Assembly: GCF_010450875.1 (NCBI RefSeq)
Contig: NZ_CP048422.1
Span: 1,395,001 to 1,459,000, forward strand
Length of the DNA stretch: 64,000 bases
Reading direction: 5' to 3'
From: Sphingomonas insulae
GTDB taxonomy: Bacteria; Pseudomonadota; Alphaproteobacteria; Sphingomonadales; Sphingomonadaceae
The notes under the pieces are model-generated. The model did no database searches. It saw only the letters and a list, made by a program, of their open reading frames with translations, and was not told the DNA's origin. This document shows, piece by piece, positions 2,952-44,613 of the stretch. Each line of letters starts with the position of its first letter. Within the stretch, counting starts at the first letter, position 1. The translations under genes were made by a program, and so were the position numbers.

Positions 2952-3632
2952 CCCGTTCTCTCCTATTTGTCGGACTATATAGATCAAGATGAAGAAAGAG
3001 GGGAAGTGACTTATTCGTGGCCGAACGGGTCAGGACGGCCGCCCTGGCGCATATCCGTCCGCTACTCCGCAGTGAGCAAGGAATGAGGTGGTCGGATGAT
3101 GTAGGACAAGAATACCGAAGGCGCATGGCCAATCTGTCAACAACAAGGCCGAGCCCAGGGTTGGTGCCAAGGATCGCAATCGAGGGAGCCGAGGACAGCA
3201 TCACGCGCCGTCGACGGTCCGACCGGACGCACGTTGCAGGTCAGCCAGGCGATCGACCGCGCAGGCGCGAAAGACCAGCCAAGGCATCCCCGCCGGACGG
3301 AAGCTGCGAGGCGGCTGGCTCATCGGCGTCGACACGACATATGATAGGTGACCCGTGCGGTTGAATGTCCTGGGTCAGTAACGGCGCACGTGCTCCCACG
3401 TCGACGCGGGGCTTTCGGCGGTGGCTACGCGATGTCGTTGGACCGCTCATCAGTGAGCGCCGAGCCTACGTCCCCCCGCCCGCGTCCATGACGGTTGCCA
3501 TATTGCTACATCGCGCAATCACCGCTGCCGGCGGGCAGGCAAGCCGGCGGGAAAATTTACGCGGATCACGGTTGCTTAGGGCGCCAAGTGGCGCGCCGTG
3601 CGTATTTCTCCGGTCGAACAGGAGAAGGCCGG
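2952..3632. other. Intergenic stretch of 680 bases without a convincing gene
   Basis: This gap lies between the divergently oriented GH42 gene and the small secreted-protein gene. Short open frames on both strands have implausible composition, with no ribosome binding sites or recognisable motifs. It presumably holds the two divergent promoters. I see no rho-independent terminator, tRNA or riboswitch in it. Confidence 0.5.
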
Positions 3633-27996: not shown

Positions 27997-29235
27997 TCAG
28001 ATCCGAACCATACCGGCGGCGCCCCAGCGCGCACGCCATCCGCGCTTCACTAGCGTCAGTCCGGCGAGAGCGACCAGCGCGAGGCCGGCAAAGATCAGGA
28101 AGCCTGACGAAAAGCTGCCCGTCAGCTGCTTGGCGACGCCCAGCGACGAGGCGAGGTAGAAGCCGCCGATGCCACCGGCGAAACCGACCAGCCCGGTCAT
28201 CACGCCGATTTCGGCGGCGAAGCGCTGCGGCACCAGCTGGAATACCGCGCCGTTGCCGGTGCCGAGCGCCAGCATCGCGCAGACGAACAGCGCCAGCGCC
28301 GATTGCACGCTCGTCGCCATGCCGACGCCGGCGAGGGCGAGCGCGGCGACGACGAACACCCCGGTCAGCGCCTTCACCCCGCCGACGGCATCGGCCAGCG
28401 CGCCGCCCATCGGCCGCACCAGCGATCCGGCGAACACACAGGCCGCGGTGCAATAGCCGGCCTGGATCGTCGTCAGCCCGAACCGGTCGGTGAAATAGAT
28501 CGGCAGGCTGGCGGCCAGCCCCACGAAACCGCCGAAGGTCACCGCGTAAAAGCCCATCAGCCACCATGCATCGGCACTTTTCAAGGGCGTCAGATACTGG
28601 CCGAAGCTCTTGGGCGCGGGCGCGTTCGGTGCGTCCTTTGCCAGCAGCATGTAAGCGACGAACACCAGCGCCAGCGGAATGCAGGCAAGGCCGAGCACCG
28701 CATTCCAGCCGAACAGCTTGGCGAGCGCTGGCGCGAACAGCGCGGCAAGCACCGTTCCGGAATTGCCCATGCCGGCGAGGCCCATCGCCTTGCCCTGATG
28801 CTGCGGCGGATACCAGCGGCTGGCGAGCGGCAGTGCGATCGCGAAGCTGGCGCCGGCGAACCCCAGTATCACTCCCAGCGCCAGCGTGCCCGCAAAGCTG
28901 TTCACACCCATTGCCCAGGCGCTGAACAACCCGGCGATGACGATGATCTGGCTGATCGCGCCCGCTTTCTTCGGCCCGATGCGATCGACGAGCAGGCCGT
29001 TGACGACGCGCAGGATCGCGCCCGCCAGAGTCGGGGTCGCGACCATCAGCCCCTTTTCCGCCGGCGTCAGTGCCAGCGTCTTGGCGATCTCCGGCGCCAG
29101 TGGCCCCAGCAGCACCCACACCATGAAGGCAAGGTCGAAATACAGGAATGCGGCGATCAGCGTCGGCGTATGGCCGCTCGCCCAGAAGCCGGTCTTGTCG
29201 CTCGTTCGATCGTCTTGCCAGATTGCCGTGGCCAT
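27997..29235 (-). CDS. narK: Nitrate/nitrite MFS transporter, NarK family
   Basis: The 412-residue protein has 12 predicted membrane segments. NNP family motifs are visible: FYFDLAFMVWVLLGPLAPEIA near the N-terminus, GFAGASFAIALPLASRWYPP and GKAMGLAGMGNSGTVLAAL in helix 5, and GFVGLAASLPIYFTDRFGL in the second half. It imports nitrate or exchanges nitrite. The ATG at 29235 follows a GGGGGA stretch; the open frame upstream overlaps the leader RNA and is not coding. First gene of the narK-porin-nirBD operon, controlled by the leader described at 29261-29380. Confidence 0.92.
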   Translation of the reverse strand: MATAIWQDDRTSDKTGFWASGHTPTLIAAFLYFDLAFMVWVLLGPLAPEIAKTLALTPAEKGLMVATPTLAGAILRVVNGLLVDRIGPKKAGAISQIIVIAGLFSAWAMGVNSFAGTLALGVILGFAGASFAIALPLASRWYPPQHQGKAMGLAGMGNSGTVLAALFAPALAKLFGWNAVLGLACIPLALVFVAYMLLAKDAPNAPAPKSFGQYLTPLKSADAWWLMGFYAVTFGGFVGLAASLPIYFTDRFGLTTIQAGYCTAACVFAGSLVRPMGGALADAVGGVKALTGVFVVAALALAGVGMATSVQSALALFVCAMLALGTGNGAVFQLVPQRFAAEIGVMTGLVGFAGGIGGFYLASSLGVAKQLTGSFSSGFLIFAGLALVALAGLTLVKRGWRARWGAAGMVRI

Positions 29236-29260: not shown

Positions 29261-29311
29261 AAAGAAAAAGCCGCCAGGACGGCGGCCATTGCTGGCTGCA
29301 TCCTGGCGGCT
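29261..29311 (-). terminator. Leader terminator of the narK operon
   Basis: On the minus strand AGCCGCCAGGA and TCCTGGCGGCT form a perfect 11-bp stem with a 21-nt loop, followed by TTTTCTTT. It lies 26 nt before the narK start codon, so it must attenuate the operon unless antitermination occurs. Confidence 0.9.
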
Positions 29312-29380
29312 TCGTTGCCGTTCAAGGGGAGGGCGCTCGCCAATCCCCATGTCGTCGCCACCGCCCTTCGTTGGATGGTG
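29261..29380 (-). promoter_or_regulatory. ANTAR/NasT-type antitermination leader RNA of narK
   Basis: Upstream of the terminator, two hairpins have identical hexaloops AACGAA. P1 (29359-29380) has arms CACCATCC and GGGCGGTG with one mismatch and a G-U pair; P2 (29307-29320) has a perfect 4-bp stem CGGC/GCCG. ANTAR proteins recognise paired hexaloops with A at position 1 and G at position 4, and both loops fit. The 3' side of P2 is the start of the terminator's 5' arm, so P2 and terminator exclude each other. The ~39-nt linker is longer than usual and can fold by itself (GGGG/CCCC around GGCG/CGCC). NasT, encoded 1.5 kb upstream, is the expected ligand. Confidence 0.8.
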
Positions 29381-29536
29381 TCGCCGTCTATTTCGTGTCC
29401 GGCGTCATCGCCCGACGATCAGGAAGCTGCCTGATTCGCGGGGTAAGTGCAAGGGGGTTTCGCACATGCAGCAAACTGGACCGGTGGTGGTCGTGGATGG
29501 TCCTCTCAAGGACAATGCGACTGCCGGACGCCTCTG

Positions 29537-29567
29537 CCCGTCATCCCGCGAACGCCGGGATGGCGGG
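29537..29567. repeat. REP-like palindrome upstream of the narK leader
   Basis: CCCGTCATCCCG and CGGGATGGCGGG pair over 12 bp with one G-U and a 7-nt loop, resembling the CATCCCG-type intergenic repeats of sphingomonads. It lies between the nasS stop and the narK leader and may separate the two transcripts. Confidence 0.6.
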
Positions 29568-29602
29568 TGGGGTGGCGGCGGCGGGGTGGAAGGGAATGGA
29601 GG

Positions 29603-30802
29603 TTAGTCCAGCCCCCGCAGATAGGCCGGTATCTCGTCCGGGTCGAAGGCGCGCCCGTCGAAGAAGCGGTCGCTGCCGAGGATCAGCCGCCCCTGTGTCG
29701 CCCCGACCCCGGTCGCCGAACCGATCGACCCTTCCATCTTCGAACTGGCGCCGGGCAGCGTCGCCGACGATCCGGCCAGCGCGGCCCGGTACAGGTCGGG
29801 GCGGAACACGCCCTCCGCCGCCTTCGCCTCCTCTTCCGCAAACGGCGTACCGTCCCATCGCGTCATCTGCGAATAGAGCCAGGCCGCCTGGCTGCGCCAC
29901 GGGAAGTTCGCCGCCTCGCGATACTGGAACATGAAGTCGGGGATGTGCAGCGCCGCGCCATCGCGTGCCAATCGCACCCGGTCGGTGATCGCGCGCAGGA
30001 TCGTCGCGGCCGGCGCATCGCAATATTCCCGGCGCGACAGGATCGCCGCGCTGTCCTCCGCCGTGTCCGGCGCGACGAAATGCGCGGCGGCGCGGTGCAG
30101 CGCCCGCAGCAATGCCGCGACCTCCTCGCCGCGCTCGGCGGCGGCGTCGGCGCGCATCGCCAGCACCTTTTCGACGCCGCGCCGCCAGATCTGGGCGGTC
30201 ACCAGAGCGATCCGGCCGACGCCGCGATCCACGGCGATGCTGTTCCAAGGTTCGCCGACGCAGATCCCGTCGACCTCGCCGGCCGCCAGCGCATCGGCGG
30301 CGAACGGCGGGCTGGTGACGACGATCTCGACGTCCAGATCGGGACGCACGCCGACGGCCGCCAGCCAATAGCGCAGCATGTAATTGTGGCTCGAATAGCG
30401 ATGCACCACGCCGAACCGCAAACGTCGCCCGGTGGCGACCACGGCGCGCAGTCTCTCGCCCAGCCTGACCGGATCGGCCAGCCCGTCGCCCAGTCCTACC
30501 GTCTCGGCAAGCGCGGTCGACAGCGTCACGGCATTGCCGTTCAGTCCCAGCACGAAGGGGACGGCCAGCGGCACTGCGGGCCGCCCGCGCCCCAGCGTCG
30601 TCGCGATCGCCAGCGGCGCGACCATGTGCGCGGCATCGGTATGGCCGTACAGCAACCGGTCGCGCACCGTCGCCCAGGTGAGGTCGCGGACGAGGTCGAT
30701 GGCGACGCCTTCGCTGGCGGCAAAGCCCTGTTCCTTCGCAAGGATCGGCAGTGCGGCGTCGACCAGCGGCAGGAATCCGATGCGGAAGAGGGGGAGCGTC
30801 AC
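29603..30802 (-). CDS. nasS: Cytoplasmic nitrate sensor NasS
   Basis: The 399-residue product is an NrtA-like periplasmic-binding fold (FRIGFLPLVDAALPILAKEQGFA, TWATVRDRLLYGHTDAAHM, VGEPWNSIAVDRGVG, FPWRSQAAWLYSQMTRW) but has no signal peptide, so it stays in the cytoplasm. In the known NasS-NasT system NasS holds NasT inactive until nitrate or nitrite binds. The start is GTG at 30802, overlapping the nasT stop (GTGA) with GGAGA 6 nt upstream. The gene precedes narK and may run toward its leader. Confidence 0.9.
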   Translation of the reverse strand: MTLPLFRIGFLPLVDAALPILAKEQGFAASEGVAIDLVRDLTWATVRDRLLYGHTDAAHMVAPLAIATTLGRGRPAVPLAVPFVLGLNGNAVTLSTALAETVGLGDGLADPVRLGERLRAVVATGRRLRFGVVHRYSSHNYMLRYWLAAVGVRPDLDVEIVVTSPPFAADALAAGEVDGICVGEPWNSIAVDRGVGRIALVTAQIWRRGVEKVLAMRADAAAERGEEVAALLRALHRAAAHFVAPDTAEDSAAILSRREYCDAPAATILRAITDRVRLARDGAALHIPDFMFQYREAANFPWRSQAAWLYSQMTRWDGTPFAEEEAKAAEGVFRPDLYRAALAGSSATLPGASSKMEGSIGSATGVGATQGRLILGSDRFFDGRAFDPDEIPAYLRGLD

Positions 30803-31380
30803 GGCAGGTCTCCCATCAGCGCATCGCTGGTGACGATCGCCTCGGCGATCTCGGCGATGCGGCGGTTCGATTGCATCGCATGGCTGCGCAACAGCGCATA
30901 GGCGGCGGGTTCGTCGAGGTGGCGGCGACGCATCAGGATCGCCTTGGCCCGGTCGATCGCCTGCCGGTCGGCCAGCGCGCTCTTCGCCTCGGCCAGTTCG
31001 GCCTGCAACCGGGCAAAGGCCTGGAACCGGCGGATGGCGAGGTCGAGCACCGGCTTGATCCGCTGCCGGGCGAGGCCGTCGACAATATAGGCGGACACGC
31101 CGGCATCGACCGCCGCCGCCGTCGATTCGGCATCGCTCTGGTCGACGAACATTGCGATCGGTCGGGCCAGCGCGCGGCTCATCGCGAAGAAATCCTCCAG
31201 CACGTCGCGGCTCGGGTTCTCCAGGTTGACCAGCACCACCTCGGGCCGCGCCGCCTCCAGCTGCGCCAGCATCGGCCCGCCGGGATCGATCAGCACCAGA
31301 TCGCCCAGGGCCGCATCGCGCAGGCCCTCAAAGATGATCGCGGCGCGCGTCCGGCTGGTGTCGATGATCGCGATCCGCAT
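30799..31380 (-). CDS. nasT: ANTAR-domain antiterminator NasT
   Basis: The 193-residue product has an N-terminal receiver-like fold (MRIAIIDTSRTRAAIIFEGL, VVLVNLENPSRDVLEDFF) and a C-terminal ANTAR three-helix bundle (about 125-185: ALADRQAIDRAKAILMRRRH, EPAAYALLRSHAMQSNRRIAEIAEAI). ANTAR domains bind paired hexaloop RNA hairpins and prevent terminator formation. The receiver lacks the usual phosphorylation triad, as in other NasT proteins, fitting control by NasS rather than by a kinase. nasT-nasS form an overlapping pair. The RNA target is almost certainly the narK leader at 29261-29380. Confidence 0.92.
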   Translation of the reverse strand: MRIAIIDTSRTRAAIIFEGLRDAALGDLVLIDPGGPMLAQLEAARPEVVLVNLENPSRDVLEDFFAMSRALARPIAMFVDQSDAESTAAAVDAGVSAYIVDGLARQRIKPVLDLAIRRFQAFARLQAELAEAKSALADRQAIDRAKAILMRRRHLDEPAAYALLRSHAMQSNRRIAEIAEAIVTSDALMGDLP

Positions 31381-43944: not shown

Positions 43945-44300
43945 AATGTGGCGAGCGAAAGGCGTGGATTGCAGAGGCTTGCCGCGTCGCCTATATGGGG
44001 CGTGCCGGCTTCCAGCCGGCTATGGCGATAAACGGTGGCGTTGCATAGACGCAGCGGACCCGGGGGCAGTACCCGGCGGCTCCACCATCGCAGTTGAGGC
44101 GCCCGGTGCCACGCTTCACGCGTGGGGACGGAACTTCAGCAGCGCTGACGGGGCCGAACTAGGATCGACGTGTGTTGAAATGCGCTGTCTTTCGCTCGGA
44201 ATGGGACCACCGCAACGGCCCATTACACAAGTGCCAACGATAACGAAGCACTCGCGATTGCGGCGTAACTGAGGGCCTAACGGCCTGACGTTATACCAAG
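43945..44300 (+). ncRNA. ssrA: Two-piece permuted tmRNA (transfer-messenger RNA)
   Basis: The gene is circularly permuted, as in alphaproteobacteria. The acceptor piece comes first and ends in GGCGGCTCCACCA at 44087, with a T-arm-like region just before. A removable segment follows, then the coding piece starts at 44150 (GGGGCCGAACTAGGATCGAC). The resume codon GCC is at 44233 and the tag reads ANDNEALAIAA to the TAA at 44266-44268. It is followed by the hairpin GGCC-TAAC-GGCC. The RNA rescues stalled ribosomes and marks the nascent chain for proteolysis. Outer ends are approximate. Confidence 0.9.
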
Positions 44301-44613
44301 ATTACGCGGTTGGACCCACCGGGCAACAGAAGGGATTCCAGCGGTACGGGGAGCACCGGGCAACAGAAGCTCCCCACCTCTTCGATCGATCCACGATGCT
44401 GTTGGATGCGGACGTCGCCAACCGACTAACCTGTCGCGGCAATATGCCGGGGACTGTCCTACGGCCCGGGGCATCGCTATCGATCCGCCCGCCGCGCGTC
44501 CTGCCCGCCCCGGTTCGCGATGGGTGCAGGAATCGAAACGATCGGGGCGGTTCGTTTCGATACGAGTGCCCCACTTGTTCATGTTGTTCAACTTGGCCGT
44601 GGACGGCAGGGCG
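44301..44613. repeat. Intergenic region with a 16-bp direct repeat next to tmRNA
   Basis: CACCGGGCAACAGAAG occurs at 44317-44332 and again at 44354-44369, a 37-bp period. No gene is recognised in the stretch. It separates the tmRNA from the end of the symporter gene. Confidence 0.6.

Follow-up and report, generated by a model that had tools for sequence, protein, structure and literature searches.

We propose that the intergenic leader of narK, found on the minus strand of the window (the whole 64-kb stretch of DNA analysed here), is very probably a nitrate-responsive NasS-NasT attenuator, composed of three hexaloop-type hairpins (P0, P1 and P2) and a spacer hairpin, PM (Table 1). Without nitrate, NasS would hold NasT, and the transcript would stop at the terminator (29311-29269). 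In presence of nitrate, freed NasT would bind the hexaloops of the nascent leader and hold P2; with P2 held, the 5' arm of the terminator would be occupied, leading to read-through into narK, the porin gene and nirB. P0 and P1 most likely load NasT on emerging, and PM most likely takes the place that a short linker has in other ANTAR targets and would keep P1 close to P2. The binding of NasT to each loop, the holding of P2 and the response to nitrate are points that we infer by analogy with known systems. The leader is ordinary in principle and of a known kind, unusual by its three loops and its folded spacer.

Table 1 Features of the narK leader and its surroundings in the window, and second leaders before nirB in other loci
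Feature	Position	Strand	Basis or remark
nasT, ANTAR regulator	30799..31380	-	PF03861, 65 bits
nasS, nitrate sensor-type NMT1_2 protein	29603..30802	-	PF13379, 212 bits
Conserved dyad TTTGCTGCATGTGCGAAAC upstream of promoter	29457..29475	-	by eye, in 27 relatives and the window, of 82
Candidate -35 element TTGCAC	29447..29452	-	CTTGC conserved; spacer 17 nt in window
Candidate -10 element CAGCTT	29424..29429	-	conserved; P0 begins 7 nt downstream in window
P0, third hexaloop-type hairpin GTCGGGC-GATGAC-GCCGGAC	29397..29416	-	folding and alignment
Single-stranded linker ACGAAATAGA between P0 and P1	29387..29396	-	partly conserved; alignment A2
P1, bipartite hairpin (upper stem and basal stem)	29353..29386	-	basal stem by folding
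PM, middle hairpin filling the P1-P2 'linker'	29323..29351	-	folding
P2, antiterminator hairpin CGGC-AACGAA-GCCG	29307..29320	-	
Intrinsic terminator, 11-bp stem and T-run, 5' arm common with P2	29265..29311	-	
narK, nitrate/nitrite MFS transporter	27997..29235	-	MFS_1, 143 bits
Second leader before nirB	L052 9079-9235		
Second leader before nirB	L054 5817-5662		
Second leader before nirB	L055 8059-8219		
Second leader before nirB	L057 9699-9830		
Second leader before nirB	L058 8267-8399		
Second leader before nirB	L061 5305-5174		
Second leader before nirB	L265 10559-10685		

The locus and its proposed attenuator

On the minus strand, the genes follow each other in the order nasT, nasS, leader, narK, an alginate-export-type porin and nirB. 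A profile search of the whole genome yielded a single ANTAR match, which is nasT (31380-30799), the ANTAR regulator of this genome. An earlier reading of the letters alone (the sequence-only reading) had placed it about 1.5 kb upstream of the leader; the measured distance is about 1.4 kb (gene ends 30799-30802), with nasS in between. The narK start codon, an ATG at 29235 placed by homologue alignment, is preceded by a ribosome-binding region at 29250-29239. A conserved promoter-like sequence, TTGCAC-17-CAGCTT, predicts a transcript start near 29417. Upstream of the -35 element, the stretches compared share a dyad (TTTGCTGCA..TGCGAAA in the window), a possible activator site. Visual inspection of the start site in the window gave no sigma-54 promoter. 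Sphingomonad leaders have a sigma-70-like promoter, unlike the leaders of two other alphaproteobacterial families (L210-L261), which are preceded by a sigma-54-like TTGGCAC-N5-YTGC (by eye). Between nasS and the narK promoter lies a palindromic repeat-like element (29542-29581), at the place of which some relatives have long inverted repeats. Elsewhere in the window, positions 43965-44340 hold an alphaproteobacterial tmRNA, also matched by the permuted-tmRNA model.

ANTAR targets are characterised by a pair of hairpins, each with a stem of 3 bp or more and a hexaloop whose first base is A and whose fourth base is G (A1/G4). The sequence-only reading had claimed two such hairpins with a common hexaloop, and both were borne out: the upper hairpin of P1, CACCATCC-AACGAA-GGGCGGTG (loop 29372-29367), and P2 (loop 29316-29311) each carry AACGAA. 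The loop-closing pair of P1 is C-G in 78/78 aligned leaders; that of P2 is C-G in the leaders listed, the search having demanded C-G or G-C there. The terminator pairs AGCCGCCAGGA with TCCTGGCGGCT over 11 bp (29311-29269), followed by five T, and reaches -34.6 kcal/mol when folded alone. Its 5' arm includes the 3' arm of P2 (29310-29307), so that the two folds are mutually exclusive, just as had been read from the letters. The full leader folds as terminator, and forcing P2 in it costs 9.0 kcal/mol; the transcript cut after P2 folds P2, which is found in the minimum-energy fold of such transcripts in 82/82 leaders.

Scanning the 64-kb window for two A1/G4-hexaloop hairpins with an overlapping terminator gave one site, the narK leader; 30 Markov copies of it together gave three matches, or 0.1 chance sites per copy. 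A covariance search with the ANTAR motif had been suggested as a check; no Rfam family reached its gathering score in the narK leader. The models isrD and mir-885 scored below threshold nearby and were discarded.

Conservation and covariation in relatives

Loci with nasT were gathered from 100 related genomes, including the window's own (34 larger stretches), and from the best 80 of 493 relatives, mostly Sphingomonas and Sphingopyxis with some Blastomonas and Novosphingobium. Of 94 rows with P2, one (L045) lacked a countable P1, having an AACGGG loop on a 2-bp stem there; the rest came to 82 distinct leaders, window included, after removal of exact duplicates. In L045 (G026), the matches to nasS, narK and nirB are each split into two pieces and the P1 stem is interrupted, which probably reflects frameshifts or assembly errors. 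Outside the 82 stand L049-L055, L057, L058 and L061 (other leader types, by eye), L085 and L111 (with the three loops, but rejected by the selection rule) and L084 and L143 (sequence available only up to nasS). L056, L059, L060, L062, L063, L065 and L064 (the last without nasS match) never entered; L060 has two hexaloops 22 nt apart. Alignment A2 (MAFFT) comprises 78 of the 82 leaders, L125, L127, L131 and L144 having been removed by hand as near-duplicates.

A1 and G4 of P1 and P2 occur in 82/82 leaders by construction, as the search demanded them; the P2 loop reads AACGAA in 53 of the 82 and AATGAA in 26. In the 78 aligned leaders, the upper stem of P1 is 93.3% paired with double changes at 5/7 pairs, and the terminator stem is 99.2% paired with double changes at 3/11 pairs. 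Taking the stems of P0, P1 and the terminator together, 97.2% of cells are paired and 13/25 pairs are changed on both sides. Shuffles, which ignore relatedness, gave 87.6% and 8.2 pairs, with 0/500 reaching the observed values, and slid controls, which allow for relatedness, stayed at or below 54.6% paired. Compensatory changes in the leaders of relatives, proposed beforehand as a check on the switch, were thus found: the P1 and terminator stems covary, and so does P0.

A third hairpin precedes P1 and P2

The switch had been considered complete with two hairpins, and ANTAR targets are expected to have exactly two hexaloops. This does not hold here, as 81/82 distinct leaders also contain P0, a conserved hairpin of hexaloop type at the predicted transcription start, 34-39 nt ahead of the P1 loop; in the exception (L042), the corresponding loop has 5 nt. 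G occupies loop position 4 in 80/81 leaders (C in L101), with the caveat that P0 was picked by its stem first and G4 served as tie-break. At position 1, 70 leaders have A and 11 have G; position 2 is A in 76/81, and positions 3, 5 and 6 are variable. The stem is 98.1% paired in the 78-leader alignment, with double changes at 5/7 pairs, and the loop-closing pair is C-G in 75/78. Loop and stem follow the rules by which ANTAR targets are recognised, as far as the available parts of the respective papers state them (PMC3369931, PMC7496416, PMC8934654). The window's own P0 (loop 29409-29404) has G1 and G4 and one G-G mismatch in its stem. In Paracoccus, hairpin HII, a change of which has relatively little effect on expression with nitrate, was matched to a GACGAT loop; a G1 hexaloop may hence be a weak or auxiliary NasT site, which bears on P0 of the window. 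We likewise infer the role of P0 and the binding of NasT to it.

An ordinary two-hexaloop switch of P1 and P2 would require no such role: P0 would then be no more than a hairpin protecting the 5' end of the message against decay, with a loop resembling the others for different reasons. We regard this as unlikely, if worth keeping in mind. The position of P0 at the predicted transcript start fits it, as do the 11 G1 loops, the window's among them, and the finding that loop positions 1 and 6 can pair in 37/81 leaders (G-U included; G-C in the window), in which case folding often yields a tetraloop. Moreover, several divergent clades keep P1 and P2 without P0 (L049-L051 and L053, by eye). However, a stabilising stem needs neither a 6-nt loop nor the G4, A2 and C-G closing that P0 keeps at the above frequencies. 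A further reading, in which P0 is no RNA hairpin and its sequence is a DNA operator, an inverted repeat that spans the start site and is bound by a repressor or activator, seems very improbable. It draws on the imperfect palindrome near +1 and the adjoining conserved upstream dyad, but G-U pairs are common in P0 (35/78 at one pair), its arms change jointly while their sequence is not kept, and its centre is asymmetric with positions 1, 2 and 4 conserved.

The spacer between P1 and P2

The sequence-only reading had described a foldable linker of about 39 nt, longer than in known examples. Its length and its ability to fold were confirmed (38 nt linear distance from the P1 upper stem to P2, 29358-29321), whereas its nature as a linker was not, as the interval consists mostly of the P1 basal helix and hairpin PM, so that 3 nt stay unpaired in the window; this rules out a loose long linker. 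Measured linearly, the 38 nt lie outside the 2-25 nt of curated ANTAR targets and the 5-12 nt of eut leaders; not counting PM, 72/82 leaders have 4-7 unpaired nt from the base of P1 to P2. In 77/82 leaders, the minimum-energy fold shows PM as a hairpin of its own, and 5/82 show none. The P1-P2 segment folds better than its shuffle mean in 77/82 leaders and has z < -1.5 in 72/82 (mean -3.0), values biased toward low z, as the segments were taken from the predicted fold. Since its loop has 3-6 nt and is not conserved, PM looks like a spacer; for the same reasons, a fourth hexaloop was ruled out.

The long linear linker marks a variant, given that the published motif definition, in the part available, allows a variable linker (PMC3369931). 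The earlier suspicion of a variant architecture was right in substance, but incomplete, as P0, the P1 basal stem and PM had been overlooked. Among the points against the reading with three loops and PM is the published linker limit of EutV, which PM circumvents only if it is folded in time.

The leader type goes with nasT and nasS

Leaders of the window's type are kept together with NasT proteins 78-92% identical to that of the window, even before an MFS protein of 28% identity, and Sphingomonadaceae with a leader of other type have NarK 72-85%, NasT 55-64% and NasS 44-64% identical. In S. faeni-type species (L043, L044, L046, L048, L118-L120, L122-L126, L130, L133, L134, L137 and L142), the gene after the leader encodes a non-orthologous MFS protein, 26-28% identical to NarK, and leader and nasTS are kept; nirB is kept in all four of these loci that were checked. 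The correlation with the leader model over 26 loci is 0.94 for NasT, 0.86 for NasS, 0.58 for NirB and -0.28 for the transporter, resting on two clusters and no gradient, with the model trained on one of the clusters. When the leader model was run on the 100 genomes, own included, the 18 with a close NasT, 17 of them in the training set, had one strong match each; under strict filters, the other 82 had no match better than E 0.0017. A second strong target in the genome of the window was dismissed, as model R1 gives one strong site and a weak opposite-strand score at the same place. Judged by these sequence comparisons, the leader type appears to belong to the regulator nasT/nasS and not to the transporter.

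That nasTS and narK are separated by a plain terminator, or by an attenuator that acts constitutively and independently of NasT, would agree with the strength of the terminator alone, but has next to no probability, as conserved hexaloops and the overlap with P2 would be purposeless in such an element and the leader type segregates with nasT/nasS. The ANTAR/NasT switch already seen in the letters is instead well supported by the hexaloop rules, the overlap of P2 and terminator, the adjoining nasTS, the covariation and the co-inheritance with NasT.

Three loops elsewhere in Alphaproteobacteria

The reanalysis of family f73 (30 loci, of which 5 lacked an anchor and 1 was a duplicate, leaving 24 aligned) revealed three loops at near-constant spacing in 22/24 leaders, the third 54-59 nt before P2. 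The column of this third loop has A1 in 23/24 and G4 in 24/24, and its stem is 90.1% paired with double changes at 4/6 pairs. Such recurrence argues against P0 as a mere 5'-end stabiliser, and so does the third loop in a second leader before nirB. Second hexaloop leaders of this kind occur in seven loci of Sphingomonadaceae with divergent NasT (Table 1), with three R1/G4 hexaloops in 6/7 and two by scan in L055. Among the divergent clades of the family, P0 was recognised by eye in L052, L054, L055, L057, L058 and L061.

Scans for a third hexaloop on a stem of at least 5 bp, a rule that misses 4-bp stems and with P2 mis-set in some f73 leaders, gave 15/21 in an earlier pass over f73 (1.9 by chance) and 7/20 in family f50 (2.5 by chance). 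From 289 sampled Alphaproteobacteria, 36 regions were retrieved and 34 of them entered the scan, which detected 14 leaders and gave 6/14 versus 1.3 by chance, according to shuffles. Rhodobacter sp. CZR27 has the loops AACGGC, AAGGAC and AATGAC at spacings of 27 and 23 (the last by eye), and Azospirillum brasilense has AACGGC, GACGGC and AACGGC. That all alphaproteobacterial leaders have three loops is ruled out by two-loop leaders such as those of Methylocystis and Leisingera; the scan also gave two loops for Rhizobium sp. 007 (nasS-side leader), Methylobacterium and Ponticoccus. Pararhizobium reaches two only if one counts a 3-bp P2 set by eye; Ruegeria has one. Of 12 named plasmid loci, seven yielded leaders by scan and L263, L266 and L268 then by eye; no leader was obtained from L262 and L273. 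On a Caballeronia plasmid (L277), ANTAR-type leaders lie at 3405 (-) and 3857 (+), on opposite strands within 0.5 kb.

We cautiously favour the view that many alphaproteobacterial NasT leaders are hexaloop arrays, in which the third loop would be a working NasT site loading a second dimer or oligomer and the spacer hairpin would keep the last two loops in reach. If true, the dual-hexaloop rule and the linker limit would be just one form of ANTAR control. Leaders with three conserved loops, two of which always stay outside the terminator, lend themselves to separating recruitment from antitermination, and single removal of P0, P1 or PM would part the two. With a long but folded spacer, a leader would have a natural way round the published linker limit, and searches for two loops with a short linker would miss or misread leaders with three loops and PM.

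Comparison with known systems

Here and below, published systems are described as given in the available parts of the cited papers. ANTAR targets are defined there by two hairpins with A1/G4 hexaloops and a variable linker (PMC3369931). The EutV targets of the Enterococcus faecalis eut genes resemble the narK leader in their pair of A1/G4 hexaloops, the second of which overlaps the 5' arm of the terminator (PMC3369931, PMC8934654), and are harmed by mutation of A1 (PMC3369931), a point against P0 of the window with its G1. They differ by a linker of 5-12 nt, compared to 38 nt linear distance with the P1 basal helix and PM inside in the narK leader, the 4-7 unpaired nt of which come close to the eut value (PMC3369931). 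In eut, a linker of 14 nt in vivo or extended by 20 nt in vitro drastically reduced or abolished antitermination. An extra upstream hairpin like P0 also sets the narK leader apart from eut leaders; an extra single G4 hexaloop is found in the eut sRNA EutX, not in the operon leader (PMC8934654).

The nasF leader of Klebsiella oxytoca, controlled by NasR, shares the nitrate response, P1 and P2, C-G closing and A1 and G4 (PMC7496416, PMC3369936), and SELEX revealed that NasR prefers a C-G loop-closing pair (PMC7496416). In contrast to the narK leader with NasS-NasT, it has the one-component NasR and two described hairpins. Actinobacterial ANTAR RNAs are alike in their dual stem-loops with A1/G4 hexaloops, but have curated linkers of 2-25 nt (PMC8164766). 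In the available parts of the open-licence literature, supplements aside, no ANTAR operon leader with more than two hexaloops is described, and the targets are called dual.

The gene arrangement is likewise known, as nasTS lies beside nitrate-assimilation genes in Paracoccus and beside nirA in Bradyrhizobium (PMC3795266, PMC5424462, PMC4724949). In favour of the proposed control, a narK-lacZ fusion of B. japonicum needs nasT (PMC4724949); against it, in B. diazoefficiens narK expression is increased in a nasT mutant under denitrifying conditions, despite a predicted NasT hairpin in the leader (PMC6759348). NasS-NasT of Paracoccus denitrificans dissociates on nitrate or nitrite, after which NasT binds the nasA leader (PMC3795266). 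Changing its hairpin HI severely lowers expression, while a change of HII has relatively little effect on nitrate and leads to doubled expression on ammonium (PMC5424462). From the distances to nasA, we assigned HI and HII in a related strain, HAMBI_2443 (L266), to hairpins with the loops AACGGC (6872) and GACGAT (6920, G1). A short-stemmed AATGAT loop lies between the two hairpins, and this leader showed no T-run terminator. The Paracoccus leader has been described with hairpins HI and HII, whereas the narK leader has three hexaloops and PM.
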